Of a DNA stretch of 64,000 nucleotides, positions 8,081-58,372 are shown in pieces (positions within the stretch are counted from its first letter, which is position 1; each line of letters starts with the position of its first letter). Both the position numbers and the translations under genes were made by a program. The notes under the pieces were generated by a model. It saw only the letters and a program-made list of their open reading frames with translations, was not told where the DNA came from and did not search any database. The stretch is from Paeniglutamicibacter psychrophenolicus (lineage in GTDB: Bacteria > Actinomycetota > Actinomycetes > Actinomycetales > Micrococcaceae): positions 2,604,001 through 2,668,000 of the forward strand of contig NZ_JAGIOE010000001.1 of NCBI RefSeq assembly GCF_017876575.1, read 5' to 3'.

Positions 8081-8118
8081 AACGCCAGGATCCCCGACAA
8101 TCCGGGGATCCTGGCGTT
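8081..8118. terminator. Transposase 3' hairpin
   Basis: A perfect 16-bp inverted repeat (AACGCCAGGATCCCCG and its complement) with a 6-nt loop, 19 bp after the transposase stop. It is followed by a T-containing stretch and can act in both directions, towards the transposase and towards the convergent response-regulator transcript. Confidence 0.75.
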
Positions 8119-12478: not shown

Positions 12479-12511
12479 AGAGGGTGGGATTCGAATCGAA
12501 TCCCACCCTCT
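12479..12511. terminator. ilvE 3' hairpin
   Basis: A nearly continuous inverted repeat (AGAGGGTGGGATTCGA and complement) with a minimal centre, 15 bp after the ilvE stop, followed by a C/T-rich TCTGCTTGTC. Confidence 0.75.
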
Positions 12512-29366: not shown

Positions 29367-29405
29367 AGGGGTGTTTAGCCAAGTAGATCTTGGCTAAACA
29401 CCCCT
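29367..29405. terminator. Bidirectional terminator between ddl and DUF3515 gene
   Basis: A perfect 17-bp stem (AGGGGTGTTTAGCCAAG and complement) with a 5-nt loop TAGAT; the flanking TGAAT/ATTCA extends it with a short bulge. It lies between two convergent genes and can serve both. Confidence 0.85.
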
Positions 29406-51346: not shown

Positions 51347-51967
51347 ATTAGCGAAAAGCGTTCAGATCGTTCGTCGTCACACGGCATCGATCGCAGTTCG
51401 CCCTTGGTTTTTCTAACCACGGATCTCGGGCGCAGCCCGGGAAACATGACGACCCTTGATGAGGTGGTCGCCGCACCGGCTGAAATCGGTGTTGCACTCA
51501 TCGGAGTCCGTGAAGGGTCAGAAATTGACCTCGATCTGCGATTCGAAGCCGTGCACGAGGGCATTCTGGTTTCCGGAATCGCCACCGTCGAAATCGACGG
51601 TGAATGCGGCCGGTGCTTGGAAGCCATCGCGTATGACTTCGATGCCGACATTCAAGAACTCTTCTACTACGAGGGCTTACACGAGTTCACCGAAGAAGAA
51701 GAGCTTGACCAGTATCAGGTTGTAGACGATCGTATCGATCTCGAACCTGTGCTCCGGAATGCAGTGGTGACCGCGCTGCCGTTCCAACCGGTATGCCGGG
51801 AAGACTGTGCAGGGCTTTGCTCCGAATGTGGAAAAAGCCTGAATGAGGATCCTGAGCATCACCATGAGGTCTTGGATCCTCGTTGGGCAGCGCTTGCCGG
51901 GCTGACCGACATCGTCGCAGAGGACGCGACACAGAGTACACATTCAGTCGAGAGAGAAGAGAAGTAG
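51347..51967 (+). CDS. YceD/DUF177 family protein
   Basis: A protein of about 206 residues encoded just before rpmF, a nearly universal bacterial arrangement. The conserved start region [17 protein letters not shown], the centre [23 protein letters not shown] and the C-terminal [23 protein letters not shown], a likely metal-binding cysteine cluster, all match DUF177. It is thought to be linked to 23S rRNA or L32 maturation. No ATG, GTG or TTG lies where the family and the AGGAG at 51337-51341 predict the start; an ATT at 51347 is 5 nt after that site, and TTG 51404 or ATG 51446 would cut into conserved sequence. The start is therefore tentative. Confidence 0.85.
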
Positions 51968-51969
51968 CC

Positions 51970-52173
51970 GTGGCTGTCCCGAAGAGGAAGATGTCCCGCT
52001 CAAACACTCGCGCCCGTCGCGCCCAGTGGAAGGCAACCGCGCCTACCCTGGTGAAGACCATGGAAAATGGCCGCGTCACCTACAGCCTGCCGCACCAGGC
52101 AAAGGTTGTCACGGATTCCGCAGGCACCGAGCTGTTCCTTGAATACAAGGGTCGCAAGGTCGCAGACGCGTAA
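51970..52173 (+). CDS. rpmF: Ribosomal protein bL32
   Basis: A small subunit of the large ribosomal particle, 67 residues. The N-terminus (V/M)[20 protein letters not shown] is the standard actinobacterial L32 start, with GTG at 51970, 2 bp after yceD. It contains no cysteine, so it is the zinc-independent (C-minus) form. The extended N-terminal basic tail binds rRNA. rnc follows after 9 bp, in the same operon. Confidence 0.95.
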
Positions 52174-52182
52174 GTCTGTCTG

Positions 52183-52884
52183 ATGCCTTCAACAGAAGAG
52201 CTTTTGAAGCGTCTCGGGGTCAATATTGACCCCGAGACGCTTCGTCTTGCCCTCACACACCGTTCTTACGCCTACGAGCATGGTGGCATTCCCACCAACG
52301 AACGCCTCGAGTTCCTGGGGGATTCGGTCCTCGGCTATGCCGTCACCGACCACCTCTACAAGAACTACCCGGATCTGCCCGAAGGCGATCTGGCCAAGCG
52401 TCGCTCCGCAGTGGTCAGCACCCGTGCCTTGGCTGGCATAGCCCGTTCCCTGGGCGTGGGGGAGTTCATCCTCCTGGGCCAAGGCGAGATTCTGACCAAT
52501 GGCAAGGACAAGTCATCAATACTTGCCGACACCATGGAATCCCTCATCGGTGCAACGTTTCTGAACCACGGCATTGAAGTTGCCCGGCAAATGGTCATGC
52601 GACTGATCCTGCCGCTGCTGCACGACGTGGATGTCCTGGGCGCCGGCACCGACTGGAAGACGGCCATCCAAGAGATCGCCGCGGCCAAAAAGCTTGGCAA
52701 CATCGAGTACCGGGTCACGGGTTCCGGCCCTGACCACCAACGCACCTACCAAGCCGTGCTGCACATCGGCGGCACCGCCTACGGCGCGGGTACCGGACCT
52801 TCAAAGAAGGAAGCCGAACAGGAATCCGCTGCGGTGTCCTGGAAGATGGTTCGCCCACACGATGAATCCACCGAGGCAAAATAA
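52183..52884 (+). CDS. rnc: Ribonuclease III
   Basis: A double-strand-specific endoribonuclease of 233 residues that processes rRNA precursors and some mRNAs. The catalytic signature NERLEFLGDSVLGYAVTDH carries the conserved Glu/Asp. ADTMESLIGATFLNHG holds the second metal site, and the C-terminal double-strand RNA-binding domain begins at DWKTAIQEIAAAKKLGNIEY and ends with GTGPSKKEAEQESAAVSW. ATG 52183 is 9 bp after rpmF. Codons 9-20 (LKRLGVNIDPETLR) lie in a perfect 38-bp palindrome, which is unusual for a coding region and probably regulatory. mutM follows after 3 bp. Confidence 0.95.
   Translation: MPSTEELLKRLGVNIDPETLRLALTHRSYAYEHGGIPTNERLEFLGDSVLGYAVTDHLYKNYPDLPEGDLAKRRSAVVSTRALAGIARSLGVGEFILLGQGEILTNGKDKSSILADTMESLIGATFLNHGIEVARQMVMRLILPLLHDVDVLGAGTDWKTAIQEIAAAKKLGNIEYRVTGSGPDHQRTYQAVLHIGGTAYGAGTGPSKKEAEQESAAVSWKMVRPHDESTEAK
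52206..52243. repeat. Perfect 38-bp palindrome inside the rnc coding region
   Basis: Half-site GAAGCGTCTCGGGGTCAAT (52206-52224) is exactly repeated as its complement at 52225-52243. In mRNA it can form a stem of up to 17 bp with a 4-nt loop, starting 23 nt after the rnc ATG. It is a good candidate for RNase III cleavage of its own message, and hence autoregulation. Confidence 0.9.
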
Positions 52885-52887
52885 GCA

Positions 52888-53805
52888 ATGCCAGAACTGC
52901 CTGAAGTAGAGGTGGTGCGGCGCGGCCTGGATGACTGGGTCGTTGGCCGCACCATCGAGTCGGTCCAGGTTGTTGACCCGCGGTCCGTCCGGCGACACGT
53001 GGACGGTCCATCCGACTTCGCCGCGAGCCTCACCCACGCTCGCATTTCGGGTGCCGTGCGCCGCGGAAAATTCCTCTGGATGCCGTTGGACGGATTGTCC
53101 ATCCCCAGCGCACTGGTGGCGCACCTGGGCATGAGCGGTCAGCTTCTGGTGGAGGAACCCGCGGCACCGGATGAAAAGCACCTCAAGGTGCGCCTCGAAC
53201 TATCCAGTGAGGCCAACAAACCCGGCCAGTTGCGGTTCATTGACCAAAGAATCTTTGGCGGAATGTTTCTCTCGCCCATGGTGCAAACCGGTGACCATTT
53301 CCCGGGTGGCATCGGGTCCGAGGATCCATTGATCCCGGAGGCTGCCGCGCACATAGCTCGGGATGTGCTGGACCCGGCGTCCACTCCCGAAACGCTCTAT
53401 GAAGCCCTGCGCAAGAAAAACACACAGCTCAAGCGCGCCATCCTCGACCAGCAAGTGATCTCCGGTGTGGGCAACATCTACGCGGACGAGGCCCTGTGGG
53501 TGGCCAAGCTCCATGGGCTGCGCTCCACGGCCACGATCCGCCGTCCGGACGTTGCCCGGCTTCACGCCGCGCTTGTAGACGTCATGGGCCGGGCGCTGGA
53601 CGCGGGCGGCACCAGCTTCGATGCGCTCTATGTCAACGTCAACGGAGCTTCCGGATACTTTGACCGGTCATTGAACGCCTACGGCCGTGAAGGCAAGCAG
53701 TGCCTGCGCTGCGCCGAGCAAGGCCTCATGTCGCTGATTCGTCGCGACCCGTTCATGGGGCGATCTTCCTACAGCTGCCCCAGGTGCCAGCGCAAACCCC
53801 GCTAG
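52888..53805 (+). CDS. mutM: Formamidopyrimidine-DNA glycosylase (Fpg)
   Basis: A bifunctional DNA glycosylase/AP lyase of 305 residues that removes 8-oxoguanine and formamidopyrimidines. The N-terminus (M)[14 protein letters not shown] places the catalytic proline at residue 2. [32 protein letters not shown] (helix-two-turn-helix) and a C-terminal zinc finger, CLRC then CPRC separated by about 20 residues, are all present. It lies 3 bp after rnc. A short GC-rich hairpin (CCCCGCT / AGCGGGG, 53797-53824) overlaps its stop. The next gene is convergent. Confidence 0.95.
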
Positions 53806-57700: not shown

Positions 57701-58372
57701 TTTGACCGTGCCGAGCAGGAAAAACGGCTGAAGAAGGCCGAAAGGGACCTTTCGGCCTTGGGCCGGGTAAACCCGTTGGCATTGGAAGAGTTCGCCGCGC
57801 TCGAGGAACGGCACAAGTTCCTGACCTCCCAGTTGGAGGACTTGAAGAACAGTCGCAAGGACCTGCTGGACATCATCAAGGACGTTGACGAGCGGGTCGA
57901 GCGGGTTTTCACCGAGGCCTACAACGACACCGCGGCGCAATTCGAGCGGGTCTTCGGCCGTCTCTTTCCCGGGGGAGAGGGACGTCTTGTCCTTACCGAC
58001 CCGGACAACATGCTCACCACCGGCATCGAAGTCGAGGCACGCCCCGCAGGGAAGAAGATCAAACGCCTCTCCCTGCTCTCGGGCGGGGAAAGGTCGCTGA
58101 CGGCGGTTGCCTTGCTGGTAGCCATCTTCAAGGCCCGGCCTTCACCCTTCTACGTCATGGACGAGGTGGAAGCGGCGTTGGACGACACCAACCTGGGTCG
58201 GCTGATCACGATTTTTGAGGAGCTGCGCGAGTCGAGCCAGTTGATTGTGATCACCCACCAGAAGCGCACCATGGAAGTCGCGGATGCGCTTTACGGCGTG
58301 ACCATGCGTGGAGACGGAGTTTCCATGGTGATCAGCCAACGCGTTGATCGCGCGGAAGCCCAAAGCGCATAG
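54788..58372 (+). CDS. smc: Chromosome segregation protein SMC
   Basis: The SMC ATPase of the condensin complex, 1194 residues, normal length. It opens (V/M)HLKTLTVRGFKSFASATTF, with Walker A GPNGSGKSN at about residue 34. Long coiled coils flank a hinge around residues 510-670 (LVNGNLDAATPPNIAAPLGKH area). The C-terminal head has the signature LSGGERSLTAVALLVAIF and Walker B FYVMDEVEAALDDTN. The start is GTG 54788; longer upstream reading would run over the divergent hydrolase gene. mutM-smc-ftsY is a conserved order, here interrupted on both sides by other genes. Confidence 0.96.
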   Translation: MHLKTLTVRGFKSFASATTFEFEPGVTAVVGPNGSGKSNVVDALAWVMGEQGAKTLRGGKMEDVIFAGTSGRAPLGRAHVSLTIDNSDGALPIEYAEVTISRTLFRAGGSEYAINGNSCRLLDIQELLSDSGLGREMHVIVGQGQLDRILHATPEDRRGFIEEAAGVLKHRRRKEKTVRKLDAMQGNLNRLEDLTGEIRRQLTPLGKQAKIARRAQAVQFEVRDAKSRLMADTLVTLRTALEKDIADEATQRAAQQVVQGRLEESRTELTGLEVAAAHATPALNKSRDLWFGLTSTRERFRSLGALSAERSRLLGTDGPEFDPSRDPDRLESQAERLGDELEELEENLEMRQELLEEALETKTEAEEAAHAEQQRLTNELRTAADRREGLARLAGQIGASRSKAEATEGELGRLRQSLTGWAERREGTANEFAALEQQAASVQGGEEDLDTAYENAADRHEALVAKMDAQRVAEQELATTLGALRGRLEALRMGAVRKDASEEILAGGHEGLLGRLSQYLEVENGYEVAVAAALGPVAEAIAVKELDHALAILGDLRETDGGRVHLVNGNLDAATPPNIAAPLGKHVLEVIGTPEALAGTLSHLLHSTVVVADLSEARQLLENDPHLRAVTLAGDLLTSGTASGGTTAAPSLIEQNAAISETEVELSVVDEKLVAMRLEAADLTAQLMAAEEAADAALSRLHDSDARISAVAQRMEHLGSLLRQGHGERERLEQQITVAQEKLEVEQEKLAELVERLDMAQEAPEDHEPETDQRDELAAAASAARQKELDARLALRSAEERANALRGRVESLKRAAETERRARAEAQRRAEIRRSQALAAREVSTKVQRVITFMDVSIELADREREQLQQRREELEAELSLVRARVDKLGHELAELTNSVHRDEMARAEQRLRIETLENRSIEELGLTSEHLVENFGPHLPVPQPPPEDDKWAALRQEVDDEGNTVPEGIAFDRAEQEKRLKKAERDLSALGRVNPLALEEFAALEERHKFLTSQLEDLKNSRKDLLDIIKDVDERVERVFTEAYNDTAAQFERVFGRLFPGGEGRLVLTDPDNMLTTGIEVEARPAGKKIKRLSLLSGGERSLTAVALLVAIFKARPSPFYVMDEVEAALDDTNLGRLITIFEELRESSQLIVITHQKRTMEVADALYGVTMRGDGVSMVISQRVDRAEAQSA

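Follow-up and report, generated by a model that had tools for sequence, protein, structure and literature searches.

Why should a stretch of DNA that reads identically on both strands lie within the first codons of the gene for RNase III? RNase III takes long perfect stems as its substrates, and its feedback is a textbook case of control, the E. coli site being rncO in the rnc leader. The symmetry found at the start of rnc in Paeniglutamicibacter psychrophenolicus could, in principle, belong to the DNA, to the protein sequence, or to an RNA structure in the message of the enzyme itself. Here, we examine these possibilities using the window, i.e., the whole 64,000-nt stretch of DNA that was analyzed, and rnc genes from related actinomycetes.

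Self-cutting by RNase III has been described in several bacteria. For Streptomyces coelicolor, the work of Xu, Huang and Cohen (2008), as described in PMC10126417, PMC2936110, and PMC5775266, places rnc (absB) in a SCO5570-L32-rnc operon whose polycistronic transcript is cut by RNase III once inside rnc and once upstream, both cuts falling, according to a review, in the loop regions of stem-loops. The same sources describe a point mutant in which the transcript is more abundant and longer-lived, the cutting by purified AbsB of its own mRNA, and an antisense RNA to rnc. In an RNase J mutant of S. venezuelae, the 3' half of the rnc mRNA is reported to rise, which was read as clearance after an internal RNase III cut (PMC12096830). 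S. aureus RNase III is described as cutting its own coding sequence near +296 and lowering its own level, at a stem said to be conserved among staphylococci (PMC3386247), and the feedback of the E. coli enzyme is described as acting via a cut in its own 5' UTR (PMC8708148). In the open-access literature, we found experiments on actinobacterial RNase III autoregulation only for Streptomyces, and no cleavage or expression data for Paeniglutamicibacter.

The palindrome and its predicted hairpin

The stretch from 52206 to 52243 is identical to its own reverse complement (arms 52206-52224 and 52225-52243), which confirms the perfect 38-bp palindrome that the initial annotation had placed at rnc codons 9-20, beginning 23 nt past the A of the ATG (Table 1). 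None of the other eight perfect inverted repeats in the 64-kb window (arms of at least 11 nt, loops of at most 8 nt) is as long, and the site is the sole match to itself in the 4.9-Mb genome at up to three mismatches. The number of exact 38-nt palindromes expected in 4.9 Mb of random sequence is ~2e-5 (4^-19 per center, with composition ignored). As RNA, the 60-nt stretch around the palindrome is predicted to fold into an 18-bp stem (17 Watson-Crick pairs and one U-G) with a 4-nt loop, where a near-perfect hairpin of ~17 bp had been proposed; its predicted energy is -38.8 kcal/mol, with z = -8.9 relative to dinucleotide shuffles of the 60-nt stretch.

Table 1. Features of the rnc locus, with positions in the window.
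Feature	Positions	Strand	Description	Basis
rpmF (ribosomal protein L32)	51970..52173	+	Upstream gene; ends 9 nt before rnc	Named by eye and by analogy with S. coelicolor SCO5570-L32-rnc
rnc (RNase III)	52183..52884	+	233 aa, ATG start	Pfam Ribonucleas_3_3, Ribonuclease_3, dsrm
5' arm of predicted RNA stem	52205..52222	+	18 bp, including U-G at base	Fold, covariation
Palindrome / RNA hairpin	52206..52243	+	rnc codons 9-20 plus 1 base on each side	Sequence, fold
Predicted loop	52223..52226	+	4 nt; variable, often unpaired in relatives	Fold, alignment
3' arm of predicted RNA stem	52227..52244	+		Fold, covariation
mutM/fpg-like gene	52888..53805	+	Downstream gene; protein starts MPELPEVE; stem-score control	Named by eye

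A covariance model of the hairpin gives rnc 71 bits, or 51 bits when the palindrome is read on its other strand, against 22.6 bits for the next-best place in the genome; within this genome, a strong model score is confined to rnc. An Rfam scan of 51400-53300 (E <= 10) returned four matches, all to other families and far below their gathering scores, and none to an rnc-leader family. A reading of the palindrome as an intrinsic terminator was rejected, since no U run follows 52243 on the 3' side and a terminator scan calls no site at the palindrome.

Pairing and codon choice in relatives

Relatives were taken as the best 80 of 197 encoding stretches from a protein search, comprising Micrococcaceae (including Paeniglutamicibacter, which is the closest genus in protein identity) and Microbacteriaceae. 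An LTHRS motif is present in all 80, as well as in the window's own copy, and the sequences were aligned in a fixed register upstream of it. Two loci, L001 and L082, represent the window's own genome, and the protein of L002 is identical; L193, L199, L200 (no anchor), and L281 were left out. In a wider survey of 197 Micrococcaceae genomes, the hairpin model matches 196, spanning 31 of 31 genera; an rnc search also matches 196 of the same 197, with one genome (G523) missed by both searches. The coordinates of hairpin match and rnc agree in the five rows compared by eye, and the rnc anchor lies at the expected distance in all 29 loci taken as best model matches (L222-L250).

The initial annotation had proposed to ask whether relatives retain the stem through paired base changes, and across Micrococcaceae and Microbacteriaceae they do. 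In a diversity alignment of 40 of the 81 loci, chosen by us and including 4 of 28 Curtobacterium, 95.7% of 680 stem cells are paired; shuffles reach 81.9% and slid registers 35-49%. Both sides have changed in 11 of the 17 pairs, and none of 500 shuffles scored as high on any of five measures. A deeper set holds 101 Micrococcaceae rows, 73 of them distinct, and includes the best model matches (L222-L250), loci cut around model matches (L271-L279), and loci delimited by their rnc coordinates and mostly drawn from divergent genera (L251-L270 and L280-L290). At distances 4-17 from the center, 1007 of its 1022 stem cells pair, 962 as Watson-Crick and 45 as G-U, next to 3 A-C and 12 other cells; in the 73 distinct rows, the loop-proximal pairs at distances 0-3 are variable and pair less well.

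Changes were counted by parsimony on an rnc tree built from the part of the gene 3' of the hairpin. The 73 distinct Micrococcaceae rows yield 28 pair-keeping double changes, compared with 0-2 in six slid registers; a further 31 single changes also keep the pair, 9 changes break it, and 1 restores it. In 51 taxa that include Microbacteriaceae and were selected for a best stem at the canonical apex (distances 2-17), 27 double changes were counted versus 1-4 in slid registers. All 47 distinct non-Curtobacterium rows of the first set, taken with no apex filter, contain 588 Watson-Crick, 27 G-U, 3 A-C, and 40 other cells. The excess of G-U over A-C in the deeper set (45 versus 3) points to the sense mRNA as the molecule that folds and is selected. 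As judged from these alignments, the palindrome is an RNA hairpin under strong selection, and the earlier proposal that the stem is a candidate RNase III self-regulatory element gains support from its covariation in relatives.

The pairing extends to the choice of amino acids. In 70 of 73 rows, a Gly codon is matched through its silent third base to the first base of the codon opposite (10,000 shuffles gave a mean of 31 and a maximum of 46), and this base thereby predicts the residue that it faces, with GGG facing Pro, GGC facing Ala, GGA facing Ser, and GGT facing Thr or, by U-G, Ala. Elsewhere in the stem, facing residues swap jointly with the pair kept, from R/T to Q/L in three Tersicoccus loci, to S/A in L257, and to H/M in L274; the double replacement of K/L by Q/F in L272 leaves one base unpaired. 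Because facing codons and amino acids change together while pairing is kept, the RNA steers the protein.

Synonymous conservation over 29 Micrococcaceae loci averages 0.87 in the stem (12 codons) versus 0.67 for 46 codons. Shuffling synonymous codons within each gene provided a null for the stem, with a pass set at p <= 0.01; the tested stretch starts at the first possible start codon at most 135 nt before the anchor and may include a little sequence from upstream of the true start. All 30 Micrococcaceae pass this test; among the controls, 13 of 1087 windows taken from the same genes and 2 of 81 mutM starts do so.

Immediately after the 3' arm (52243-52248), the codons CGT CTT are used with little variation in the first Micrococcaceae set, where CGT encodes every Arg (present in 28 of 29 loci) and CTT every Leu (in 29 of 29). 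The larger Micrococcaceae set retains CGTCTT in 52 of 73 rows, and replacements of it often come without matching changes, for which reason a possible small alternative hairpin, formed by the 3' arm with the downstream CGTCTT, was set aside by eye.

Stems in other lineages

The hairpin is common to most Microbacteriaceae other than Curtobacterium, and the synonymous-shuffle test is passed by 16 of 24 of these, by 1 of 3 Tersicoccus, and by both f3 genomes. Curtobacterium genes show the canonical stem in various states of erosion, and they have a stem of different sequence whose apex is displaced ~51 nt upstream and falls at or over the likely start codon. This relocated stem is near-perfect, with 21-27 pairs (e.g., L033, L034, and L049; 27 in L033), and 24 of 28 Curtobacterium pass the shuffle test at another place than the canonical stem. 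As for the f3 genes, L144 has a 38-pair stem spanning 90 nt at the first rnc codons (-72.6 kcal/mol), with an apex ~20 nt upstream of the usual one, and L143 has a very long hairpin over the first rnc codons that does not rank in the top three by length for that gene.

Seventeen genes that we assigned as Streptomyces-like (f5) by inference fold a bulged stem whose codons nearly coincide with those of the Micrococcaceae hairpin. Its apex lies at most ~4 nt from the Micrococcaceae apex in three genes examined closely and in 13 of the 17 in a wider test. What sets these genes apart is folding energy alone, with z from -2.0 to -4.7 in all 17; other windows of the same genes also give low z, and none of the 17 passes the gapless stem test under synonymous shuffles; over the whole folding-energy test, 7 of 193 genes were unscored owing to a stop or ambiguous codon in the fixed window. 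Of 106 genes from groups other than Micrococcaceae, Microbacteriaceae, and f3, just 2 pass the stem test (for instance, f6 0/9, f79 1/11, f81 0/5, f85 0/8, and f8 1/7), so such control is not universal.

A scan of 296 genomes across the phylum found a model match at E <= 0.01 in 68. An rnc signature is present in only 6 (L082-L086 and L096) of the 30 loci fetched, suggesting that most weak matches outside the order are unrelated stems; the 24 loci lacking the signature were dropped before rnc was counted. In the same order, 4 of 11 genomes have no hairpin-model match, and one (G237, locus L107) has a match without the rnc signature. Imperfect stems that match or exceed the hairpin in pair number are frequent in other parts of these G+C-rich genes, such as one of 20 pairs and weaker energy in the window's own rnc (L001). 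Thus, the number of pairs alone is not the mark of the element; what is special is a gapless, covarying stem. The distance from start codon to stem also differs, from 23 nt here to ~35 nt in Leifsonia-like genes, 0-6 nt in Curtobacterium, and ~30-70 nt in three Streptomyces-like genes, in which the start codons were guessed.

A putative self-cleavage site and its alternatives

From the published self-cutting in Streptomyces and S. aureus, as far as the sources describe it, and the covariation seen here, we infer an in-frame feedback site, and we consider it likely that the hairpin is a cis-acting RNase III autoregulatory site inside the gene. The genes rpmF and rnc presumably share one transcript, and, by analogy with those systems, RNase III would also cleave in this organism. 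The enzyme would recognize and cut the predicted hairpin in its own rnc message; a cut at codons 9-20 would destroy that message, and excess RNase III would lower its own mRNA in a negative feedback. The upstream rpmF would be spared because the cut would fall downstream of it.

The closest known system is that of S. coelicolor, where rnc also lies behind the L32 gene and its transcript is reported to be cut inside rnc. A long stem-loop in the rnc coding sequence is what the locus has in common with this type; the stem here is kept by compensatory change (our own criterion for a functional stem), and the Streptomyces-like stem has nearly the same apex as the one here, although the published cut is given in the sources by description, without a coordinate. 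In contrast, the Streptomyces-like stem is bulged and of other sequence, whereas the stem here is gapless with family-wide covariation, and the reported S. coelicolor cut falls in loop regions rather than being the classic cut within a stem. S. aureus likewise has an RNase III target stem inside the rnc coding sequence, but the site described near +296 is a bulged helix cut on one side, and so differs in both place and shape. The E. coli leader site shares with our proposal the feedback of RNase III via its own mRNA; unlike the present stem at codons 9-20, it lies in the 5' leader, and no Rfam rnc-leader match was found here.

Autoregulation via the rnc coding sequence is known already; neither a family-wide element that steers amino acids nor its relocation was found in the open-access literature searched or in Rfam. 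With somewhat less confidence, but still leaning in favor, we propose that the rnc message carries a substrate of its own product in frame in several actinomycete families. This substrate would dictate residues of the enzyme (the Gly wobble base fixing Pro, Ala, Ser, or Thr five residues on, and R/T changing to H/M, Q/L, or S/A together) and would have been rebuilt at new places with new sequences between lineages, as a recurrently re-evolved self-cleavage operator.

A hairpin that acts in the RNA by a route other than RNase III cleavage could also keep rnc translation low, by slowing ribosomes or by blocking initiation or re-initiation after rpmF, and the position of the stem 23 nt past the ATG, together with the relocated Curtobacterium stem at or over the likely start codon, would suit such a role. 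We regard this as unlikely, given that the start-to-stem distance differs between lineages and that the strong score is found only in the gene for a double-stranded RNA nuclease, in which the stem is most naturally read as an RNase III substrate. Likewise, the earlier suggestion that the stem hides early rnc codons from ribosomes is not favored as the main role in Micrococcaceae, because 23 nt of coding sequence precede the stem and lineages differ in how far it lies from the start codon.

It is quite improbable that the stem serves as a processing site that splits rpmF from rnc-mutM instead of as a feedback switch. This reading agrees with the placement of rpmF directly upstream and with the second cut reported upstream of rnc in the S. 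coelicolor transcript. However, a cut inside the rnc coding sequence would destroy that message, so that feedback would follow even under the processing reading.

The perfect symmetry of the DNA might otherwise mark a palindrome bound by a dimeric regulator, and the antisense RNA to rnc reported in S. coelicolor would accord with a structure on the antisense strand. Both are very improbable, since pairing is conserved rather than sequence, G-U cells exceed A-C cells on the sense strand by 45 to 3 (27 to 3 in the unfiltered first set), and Curtobacterium uses another sequence at another place; the covariation without fixed sequence and the G-U excess also weigh against the DNA-binding site that had been raised initially. 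Least credible of all is a functionless by-product of protein sequence and codon bias, or of template switching that perfects quasi-palindromes, for although the residues that face each other allow for symmetry and double changes on one branch could come from template switching, synonymous shuffles fail to reproduce the stem, its codons are kept (0.87 versus 0.67), the hairpin occurs in 196 of 197 genomes, facing amino acids change jointly with pairing kept, and 59 pair-keeping changes against 9 breaks are far from equal rates.

The presence of the stem in all 196 Micrococcaceae genomes with detectable rnc offers a natural system in which to measure how RNA structure competes with protein sequence in one frame, and a direct test of whether the putative autoregulatory site is ancestral and changes its place. 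A recoded rnc would probably escape hairpin control.

Further hairpins were noted elsewhere. In Arthrobacter citreus, A. koreensis, and relatives (L014, L017, L018, L019, L020, and L022), the rpmF-rnc gap contains an additional long hairpin, ~95-145 nt before the LTHRS codons and with 23 pairs in L014; this hairpin may be a terminator, or it may offer RNase III a second site comparable to the one described upstream of rnc in S. coelicolor. Within the window, a 33-nt inverted repeat at 12479-12511 (arms 16, loop 1) lies between ilvE-like and galE-like genes on the + strand, both named by eye, and is probably a terminator. Another at 29367-29405 (arms 17) is in no reading frame of at least 100 aa, one at 8081-8118 (arms 16) overlaps the beginning of a minus-strand frame of 370 aa that matches no Pfam entry, and one at 57734-57759 (arms 12) lies in an smc-like frame.
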